Below, one piece after another: positions 22,015-24,344 of a DNA stretch of 64,000 bases. Under the pieces are notes generated by a model. That model did no database searches. It was given only the letters and a program-made list of their open reading frames with translations, and was not told the origin of the DNA. Origin of the DNA: an uncultured Alteromonadaceae bacterium (GTDB taxonomy: Bacteria; Pseudomonadota; Gammaproteobacteria; Pseudomonadales; Halieaceae); contig CAJYAI010000002.1 of the NCBI GenBank assembly GCA_913064725.1, positions 1-64,000 of the forward strand, written 5' to 3'. Positions within the stretch are counted from its first letter, which is position 1. Each line of letters starts with the position of its first letter. The position numbers and the translations under genes are program-made.

Positions 22015-22042
22015 GAGTTAGCCTCATTGAGTCAGCCTCGAT
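22015..22042. repeat. 14-bp tandem duplication covering the lysR-family stop codon
   Basis: gagttagcctcatt / gagtcagcctcgat, 12/14 identical; complement of the stop is tca at 22032-22034. Confidence 0.7.
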
Positions 22043-22973
22043 GCACCGTGCGGACTCGGAGCCCTCTCACGGCGTCTATAACCTCATTCCAAAACCATTG
22101 GTGTATCGGTGAGCGCGCGGTGCGGTCGTGAGCGACTAATGAATACGCAACAGTCTGTCCATAGTCACCCGGCAAAGGCAGTGTCACCAGGTCGAGCGTT
22201 GCACCATCATTGCGTGCCATATAAGCAGGGCAGACCAAGGTATAATTGGTGCTTCTGAGGATTTCAAATGCAGTTAGCAAATGCGATGTCTCTACGCTTC
22301 CTTTGGCACTACCTAGGACCTGGGATGTTGATTGGTCTACGTAATCCGTTTGTGCACGGTCGGCAATATATAAGTTTATTTGGGGAAATAAACGAAGATT
22401 ATCTTCAGTGAGCGGTTGCTGTGTTAGCGGATGATCTCGCCGGACAAAAATAGCCAGCGGCGAGCTCGCTAGCTCGAAATGTCGAAATTCGGACGGGTAT
22501 GCGTTGCGGCTGAGCTGGATCGCAAAGTCGAGTCTACCATCTGCCAGCATATCAAGCTGTTGTTCCGCCCGTGTAATCGTTCTGAGCTTGAGTTTCGGGG
22601 CTCGAGTTTCCAGCCGTGCTGTCAGGGATGGGAGTAGCGTAAAGCCCACATACTCTGAAATTGCTATGGCAATCTCGCCCCTAAATGCCTGCGGACTGAA
22701 CTCGCCAGCATCCAGCAGACCCTCGATATCGGCAAGGACGTGAATGAGTTCGTTAGCCAGGGCTTCTGCGCGGGGCGTAGGCTGTATGCCTCTTTTACTG
22801 CGTGCGAATAGGGGGTCGTCGAATGTGTCTCTAAGGCGATTTAAGGTCTTTGACATGGCGGGTTGTGTGACATTAAGACGATCCGCGGCTTTAGAAACGC
22901 TTCGTTCCTCTATGAGGACATGCAGCGCCACCAACAGATTGAGGTCCGCTTTTGCTAGCTTGCTGACATCCAT
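22032..22973 (-). CDS. LysR-family transcriptional regulator
   Basis: N-terminal HTH LNLLVALHVLIEERSVSKAADRLNVTQPAMSKTLNRLRDTFDDPLFARSKRGIQPT. Confidence 0.93.
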   Translation of the reverse strand: MDVSKLAKADLNLLVALHVLIEERSVSKAADRLNVTQPAMSKTLNRLRDTFDDPLFARSKRGIQPTPRAEALANELIHVLADIEGLLDAGEFSPQAFRGEIAIAISEYVGFTLLPSLTARLETRAPKLKLRTITRAEQQLDMLADGRLDFAIQLSRNAYPSEFRHFELASSPLAIFVRRDHPLTQQPLTEDNLRLFPQINLYIADRAQTDYVDQSTSQVLGSAKGSVETSHLLTAFEILRSTNYTLVCPAYMARNDGATLDLVTLPLPGDYGQTVAYSLVAHDRTARSPIHQWFWNEVIDAVRGLRVRTVHRG

Positions 22974-23013
22974 GATATAACCTCTAAGAATGTATTTTAT
23001 GATAATAATGAAT

Positions 23014-23041
23014 TTGAATTAATTTGCATTCTTTTTATACT
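23014..23041 (+). promoter_or_regulatory. Putative sigma-70 promoter (TTGAAT - 16 bp - TATACT)
   Basis: TTGAAT at 23014-23019, TATACT at 23036-23041 in the AT-rich lysR/hypothetical intergenic region. Confidence 0.5.
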
Positions 23042-23081
23042 TACTGCGTGTGTTTAGGCACATTCCGCTCAAGTTTCTTTT

Positions 23082-23107
23082 GCCCGCTCTCATGCGGGCT
23101 TTTTTTT
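23082..23107 (+). terminator. Intrinsic terminator upstream of the 23124 gene
   Basis: gcccgc-tctcat-gcgggc stem-loop followed by 8 T. Confidence 0.85.
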
Positions 23108-23123
23108 GAGCTATATTGACGGC

Positions 23124-24344
23124 ATGGTCACTTTATACCGACGCCTTTATCTATCGTCCATGCTGCTTTTGTTGCCCGATATTGCCGGGGCTGTGTTGGT
23201 GCCGCAGCCGGTAGGTATGTTTGTTGAGCCTGTTCGTGGCGTCTATGTCTCCGACGATAAGATGATTGATTCAACTGGGTTGCTGGACCACACAAGGCGA
23301 ACCAAGGACGTCGTAGAGCTGCAAGCAACGCTGGGAGCCTATCATGCGTCACTTGGCGAAAAGTGGCTCGAGTTAGCTCACGAGGCAGTTCTGCTGGGAC
23401 AGTCTGAAAACGCCGCGGCATTTTTTCAGCTAGGCCTGCACAATGTTAGGCTTAACTCCGGCTTGACCACAAAAAGCCAGGTAGGAGCTTTGTCTGACTG
23501 GATAGCGGTGCTTCGGAAGGTCGGAGATAGTGAGGCGCTAAGTCAGCAGTTGGCATACCGATATCGTCTTACGGGCCTTGACGCTACAGTTTTGACTGAG
23601 GAGCAGCTTGATTTTGCGTTGCAGTACTTCGATCACGAGCTAGCGATGCTCGCGACGTCGTCTTGGCATAATCGAGATCGGGAGATCCTAAGGTTACATG
23701 ACGATATTGAGGACGTAGTAGATCGCTCGTGTGAGGGGGATAGTGCCCAAGCGGCTGCGTGCCTCGCGTTTGTCAAACGACGCTTATATCTTCTTTATTT
23801 GACGGTTTACGCGGTTGAGCCCTACGTGCAAGACCAGAAGAGGTCGCTTCTATATTCACCTAGGTTAATGGCAGACCCTTCGCCTACAGATGAGCAGCTC
23901 GAAGTAATCGAACGGGGGGCTTTTTTGACGGGCATTAGAATGCTCGAGGATGCGCAGGATTTTGTCGGTGCTGATGACGAGTTGGAGCTGTTATTAGCCG
24001 ACTGGCGCTGGTTTTTTGATCGCACCGGTGTGGCCATGAAGACATTCTCACGTTTAGCGCAAGAGGATCCCGAGCGTTTCGAGCAGCCGGTGGAGCTACC
24101 GCATGGCCTTATCGAGCAAACCTCGCTGCCAGCAACGGCGTCCGACGCGAGGGCGACATTTACCTTCCAGGTATCTACGCGGGGGCGTGTTCGTAACCTT
24201 CGTGCAGTGTTGGGGACCGAGCAATCGTCCGTGCCACGTAAACTGAGAGCCGGAATACGGGAGCTCAGATTTAGACCCGCGGTATCGGCTGGCGGTGAGG
24301 CTCTGCAGGTGAACCTGACCAGGACTTATCGCGAGACGCGCTGA
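23124..24344 (+). CDS. Uncharacterised exported protein, helical/TPR-like N-terminal part and TonB_C-like C-terminal segment
   Basis: N-terminal MVTLYRRLYLSSMLLLLPDIAGA (signal-like); C-terminal ATFTFQVSTRGRVRNLRAVLGTEQSS..LRAGIRELRFRPAVSAGGEALQVNLTRTYRETR. Start revised from 23106, which overlaps the terminator. Confidence 0.65.
   Translation: MVTLYRRLYLSSMLLLLPDIAGAVLVPQPVGMFVEPVRGVYVSDDKMIDSTGLLDHTRRTKDVVELQATLGAYHASLGEKWLELAHEAVLLGQSENAAAFFQLGLHNVRLNSGLTTKSQVGALSDWIAVLRKVGDSEALSQQLAYRYRLTGLDATVLTEEQLDFALQYFDHELAMLATSSWHNRDREILRLHDDIEDVVDRSCEGDSAQAAACLAFVKRRLYLLYLTVYAVEPYVQDQKRSLLYSPRLMADPSPTDEQLEVIERGAFLTGIRMLEDAQDFVGADDELELLLADWRWFFDRTGVAMKTFSRLAQEDPERFEQPVELPHGLIEQTSLPATASDARATFTFQVSTRGRVRNLRAVLGTEQSSVPRKLRAGIRELRFRPAVSAGGEALQVNLTRTYRETR

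Follow-up and report, generated by a model that had tools for sequence, protein, structure and literature searches.

A LysR-linked small RNA gene of Halieaceae whose conserved core may pair with a CrcZ-like RNA

Results

The interval from 23048 to 23107 of the window (the whole 64,000-nucleotide stretch of DNA analysed here) is very probably a small RNA gene in its own right, which accompanies a LysR-type regulator throughout Halieaceae. Its exposed core may well base-pair with a CrcZ-like RNA that is encoded upstream of pcnB. Judged by its named relatives, the genome belongs to Halieaceae (OM60/NOR5). The features of the locus are collected in Table 1. The RNA has its own promoter and its own intrinsic terminator, with no gene in between. 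A preliminary description of this DNA had given the positions of the promoter, the hairpin, the run of eight T and the ATG at 23124, all of which agree with the sequence.

Table 1. Coordinates of the features of the small RNA locus in the window.
Feature	Position	Strand	Remarks
lysR, LysR-type regulator gene divergent from the RNA	22032..22973	-	Pfam HTH_1 and LysR_substrate
T-N11-A LysR-box-like element TGAATTTGAATTA	23009..23021	.	Read from the sequence; overlaps the -35; putative binding site
Promoter of the small RNA, TTGAAT-16-TATACT	23014..23041	+	TTGAAT 23014-23019, TATACT 23036-23041; 16-nt spacer in 16/16 close relatives
Small RNA, about 60 nt	23048..23107	+	Predicted start 7 nt past the -10; end at the T-run
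5' hairpin GUGUGU-UUAG-GCACAU	23048..23063	+	Letters differ among species, some hairpin usually kept
Unpaired core CCGCTCAAGTTT, putative seed of pairing with the CrcZ-like RNA	23065..23076	+	Unpaired probability 0.88-1.0; complement and co-variation
U-rich stretch 5' of the terminator hairpin	23074..23081	+	Read from the sequence
Intrinsic terminator GCCCGC-TCTCAT-GCGGGC-T8	23082..23107	+	Hairpin 23082-23099, eight T 23100-23107
TATATT, -10 box of the exported gene	23112..23117	+	16/16 close relatives; putative leaderless mRNA
Exported protein gene of unknown family; neighbour outside the RNA unit	23124..24344	+	Conserved through the genus

The promoter matches the consensus at 9 of 12 positions. 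Such sites occur 3 times in a 10-kb region against 8.1 expected in shuffles, and since they are rarer than expected, the consensus match alone is no evidence for a promoter. The terminator is the sole one with at least six G-C pairs and T8 on both strands of the 64-kb window; when the intergenic region was shuffled 5000 times, even a weaker one with five G-C pairs arose only twice. All 16 close relatives have the 16-nt promoter spacer; their terminators end 58-65 nt past the -10, and the intervening letters vary. Thus the conservation of hairpin and promoter in close relatives, on which the preliminary description had made its proposal depend, is observed for both. The gene order tatD-lysR / exported-methyltransferase-csp is also retained. 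In relatives the terminator can be re-lettered yet still paired, for example GCCCACTC/GAGTGGGC at locus L029. More distant members of the genus carry a longer version of about 110 nt, in which a long hairpin is formed (z as low as -5.5) and the terminator is similar, often with letters that differ but still pair.

Orthologs of lysR are present in 68 of the 140 family genomes (E ≤ 1e-90), and none was found outside Halieaceae at E ≤ 1e-75 among 295 genomes of the order. A terminator-ended RNA lies divergent from lysR at 88 of 88 Halieaceae loci, these being the loci with a lysR ortholog and a readable lysR start, and mostly beside a T-N11-A box. The LysR-box-like element stands at the same place in relatives; in other genera, where it reads TACATTRGATATA, it is accompanied by a promoter-like -10 and by an RNA ending in AAACCCGCC-N4-GGCGGG-T7. 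The LysR neighbour had been named earlier as a candidate regulator, a proposal that is supported by the synteny and by the conserved box over the -35. The LysR regulator probably controls the RNA through this box.

Covariance model R1, which represents the 3' half of the RNA, matched about 17 Halieaceae genera with scores exceeding 40 bits, and outside the family nothing in the order genomes scored above 36.1 bits, which is the range of ordinary terminators. The R1 matches in the fetched loci adjoin lysR, except L126 and L130; at these two loci, from two genera, the RNA is retained beside tatD and lysR is absent. With a score of just 26 bits, the copy in the window is not recognised by the model alone; its membership of the family rests on position and on a chain of relatives. 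At the Rfam gathering cut-offs there was no match in the window and none in 18 relatives.

Folding of the RNA yields two hairpins with an exposed middle (z of -4.0 against shuffles). The 5' hairpin taken alone is weak, with a mean z of -1.3 against shuffles, and is missing in L004. RNAalifold recovered the terminator stem only, with zero compensatory changes in it, from the alignments of close relatives and of the 3' module; a distant subset gave two compensatory pairs. What supports the hairpins is thus chiefly that they persist although their letters change.

The most conserved unpaired element of the RNA is the core, with the family consensus CCATCCAGGTCC; positions 23065-23074 of the window read CCGCTCAAGT. 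The window RNA further has a U-rich stretch and a GC hairpin, and it ends in seven or more U. A U-rich stretch before the terminator hairpin is typical of Hfq-bound RNAs, and the genome has an hfq gene (PF17209 match at G000:C66, 102 bits). The order of 5' hairpin, exposed core, U-stretch and terminator is that of the Hfq-type design, and the RNA is predicted to bind Hfq.

A search for GGACCTGGATG, the complement of the core, in eight genomes of four genera gave 74 sites, of which 70 were examined and almost all proved to lie within long reading frames. The sites clearly outside coding sequence belonged to the small RNA itself or lay in the gap that separates pcnB from the gene of an NtrC-type regulator; the coding status of a few further sites (L267/L275, L146, L293) is ambiguous. 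In L267 and L275, from two g30 genomes, a conserved and possibly non-coding GGACCTGGATGAATTGGAGACTTG may be a second target of the RNA.

The region upstream of pcnB has a sigma54-like TGGCAC-N5-TGC promoter, repeated AAYAAnAA motifs and a GGGGAAG/CTTCCCC hairpin in all 40 genomes first fetched, and its RNA carries GGACCTGGATGG, which is complementary to the small RNA core. The complementary motif is found upstream of pcnB in all 41 paired genomes. Similarity to RF01675 (CrcZ) is weak in the relatives, the best score being 27.3 against a cut-off of 95 bits, and no match for the locus of the window genome itself (L172, G000:C9:47988-48100) is among the matches listed. By its position, sigma54-like promoter, A-rich motifs and weak RF01675 matches, the RNA of L172 and of the related loci L173-L231 appears to be CrcZ-like. 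The NtrC-type protein is called CbrB-like here by gene position only, and no NCBIfam equivalog above cut-off was obtained for it. In Pseudomonas, CrcZ titrates Hfq, and CbrB activates CrcZ from an RpoN promoter (PMC4063720). In many other genera the GACCTGG-hairpin element of the CrcZ-like RNA is duplicated.

Pairing between the two RNAs was followed in 40 RNA pairs. In cognate pairs, both RNAs coming from one genome, a mean of 11.15 of 12 positions are paired, with a one-base bulge allowed by hand in four genomes. Clade-specific changes largely preserve the pairing: in G078, G081 and G153, GGACCTGGACGG (AC type) in the CrcZ motif goes with a CCGTCC or CCGTTC core; in the window clade, GGACCTGGGCGG (GC type) goes with CCGC; and in part of the genus, GGACCTGGGTGG goes with AC in the core. 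The duplex energy is -25.3 kcal/mol for cognate and -23.2 kcal/mol for non-cognate combinations, a difference reached in 0 of 20000 permutations by a test that ignores phylogeny. On the LysR tree, core position 3 has changed independently just 2-3 times, each time concordantly, and position 4 is mixed.

It may be asked whether the stand-alone LysR-linked RNA instead acts mainly on mRNAs, the complement in the CrcZ-like RNA being a secondary decoy or two conserved motifs that match by chance. The predicted pairing in the window genome reaches -15.6 kcal/mol with one mismatch, a value that 8.5% of random sites in the window and 28% of shuffled sequences also attain, so the energy alone is no evidence there; so unremarkable a value would fit mRNA targets. 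Such targets would also fit the presence of the CrcZ motif in genera that yielded no copy of the small RNA. This presence suggests that the motif has some other role too, or that the partner was missed; in the genera with the motif only, the matched stretches of the sites returned by the RNA search lack the terminator motif. Within the folded CrcZ-like RNA, the CrcZ motif is partly paired. Finally, the about 110-nt version in distant members of the genus (L018-L026) exposes a C-rich loop, UCCCUUUU, which could pair with ribosome-binding sites. Against mRNAs as the main targets stand the 12-nt complementarity, across genera, between the most conserved elements of both RNAs, and the concordant changes in the AC, GC and part of the GT types. 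We regard mRNAs as the main targets as unlikely, although a serious competitor to pairing with the CrcZ-like RNA.

The preliminary description had proposed either an attenuator of the downstream exported gene or an sRNA of about 60 nt. The latter half stands, because the RNA stays with lysR where the exported gene is missing, and the former does not. A promoter driving the exported gene through a conditional terminator would agree with a same-strand terminator 16 nt ahead of the start codon and with the synteny retained within the genus. However, most of the other genera examined have no exported gene next to the RNA (a distant copy is found in L125), which argues that the RNA is not the leader of that gene, and the gene next to the RNA in other genera is often oppositely oriented. 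The CCGC at 23065-23068, put forward earlier as an antiterminator, is indeed present and falls within the conserved unpaired core, but its pairing with the terminator arm is not conserved; most distant relatives lack CCGC and keep a core complementary to the CrcZ-like RNA. Moreover, the window's small RNA contains no ORF, hence no leader ORF. The attenuator was rejected since the leader does not stay with the gene and no antiterminator pairing is conserved; we consider it very improbable.

The exported gene, whose product has no match in Pfam or NCBIfam, seems to have a start signal of its own. The TATATT box lies 6 nt before the ATG in 15 species and 7 nt in one (16 of 16 close relatives); in L012 the true box before the ATG is TATATTGGGCTCATG, and another TATATT lies further upstream. 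For comparison, a match of at least 5/6 to TATAAT stands 6-9 nt before 1.3% of the window ATGs. In part of the clade an insertion of about 16 nt separates the terminator from the box, which thus moves with the start codon. No Shine-Dalgarno sequence was seen before the gene in the 16 close relatives, and no good -35 for the TATATT box was found. The gene is thus predicted to be transcribed from TATATT as a leaderless mRNA, an exception for which the preliminary description had rightly allowed. With an invariant -10 box of its own, the gene need not be read through the terminator, which also speaks against the attenuator.

Equally improbable is a functionless RNA, left by a relic promoter and an insulating terminator that shields the exported gene from lysR-side transcription: the interval between promoter and terminator does vary strongly among clades and the 5' hairpin is weak by itself, but more than 15 genera have kept the exposed core, the U-stretch and the terminator, also where no same-strand gene needs protection, and the distant relatives have longer structures (z to -5.5).

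A version of about 210 nt occurs in three genera, g34, g36 and g42, and contains an ORF of 24-26 codons, MFIAATFGLYFALLGWIAWDEIQSAR and its relatives, with a good Shine-Dalgarno sequence. The small hydrophobic product of 24-26 aa is conserved with the pattern MFIxxMFGLYFALIGxIAWDD, and a profile search for it matched only these three genera, each time at the RNA locus. Between the ORFs of L262 and L266, 9 of 15 base differences fall at third codon positions. The RNA loci with the small protein are L127, L128, L129 and L133, upstream of lysR, and also L262-L266.

Discussion

The RNA described here is a new family of a known arrangement, in which a small RNA and a LysR-type gene are transcribed divergently. 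It was reported previously that GcvB of enterobacteria is divergent from the gene of the LysR-type protein GcvA, which activates it (PMC1557403). GcvB and the Halieaceae RNA share the divergent LysR-type gene, the intrinsic terminator and the features of an Hfq-type RNA. However, the window RNA scores 12.9 bits with GcvB RF00022 against a cut-off of 42, GcvB is about 200 nt long compared with about 60 nt in the window clade, the core differs, and the window LysR is not a recognised GcvA. RyhB (RF00057) is similar in overall layout and in CACAUU and gave the best sub-threshold Rfam score, 26.9 bits; since this is below half of the cut-off of 55 and the common letters are lost in relatives, identity with RyhB was rejected.

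The proposed partner resembles CrcZ (RF01675) in its location after an NtrC-type regulator gene and before pcnB, in its terminal hairpin, in its sigma54-like promoter and in its several A-rich motifs, but has one or two GGACCUGG elements that are lacking in the Pseudomonas consensus. A conserved core directed at CrcZ would be new. In the literature, which was covered in part, we found neither a small RNA that pairs with CrcZ nor a paper joining CrcZ and Halieaceae.

The form in g34, g36 and g42 is laid out like SgrS/SgrT and VcdRP (PMC4021124, PMC8672173), with an ORF and its Shine-Dalgarno sequence upstream of the pairing region and terminator, beside a regulator gene. VcdRP encodes 29 aa (PMC8672173). 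The likeness is one of layout, and unlike these systems the window RNA has no ORF.

The explanation that we prefer as a whole, and hold to be reasonably probable, is a trans-acting LysR-linked RNA whose core pairs with the CrcZ-like RNA, the exported gene being separate. The divergent LysR regulator would set transcription of the small RNA through the T-N11-A box over the -35. Probably as the main conserved function of the RNA, the exposed core would then base-pair with the GGACCUGG[AU/GC/GU]GG element beside the hairpin of the CrcZ-like RNA, itself made between the NtrC-type (CbrB-like) regulator gene and pcnB. In this manner the LysR signal may tune the Hfq-titrating RNA of carbon catabolite control, or the CrcZ-like RNA may soak up the small RNA; either direction is conceivable. 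The terminator would insulate the exported gene, separately transcribed as a leaderless mRNA.

We give about even chances to a circuit extending over all Halieaceae, in which a LysR-controlled sRNA pairs with an Hfq-titrating CrcZ-like RNA and which in one lineage is dual-function, with a membrane-type protein of 24-26 aa. If true, carbon catabolite control would have at its top one regulatory RNA that acts on another, and Halieaceae would provide a clean example from nature of RNA-RNA control whose co-evolution can be traced. The orthologs form a ready set for testing the pairing, and one lineage offers a non-coding RNA that carries a small protein gene. A conserved partner of CrcZ under its own LysR regulator would mean a second input to carbon-source control in these abundant marine bacteria.
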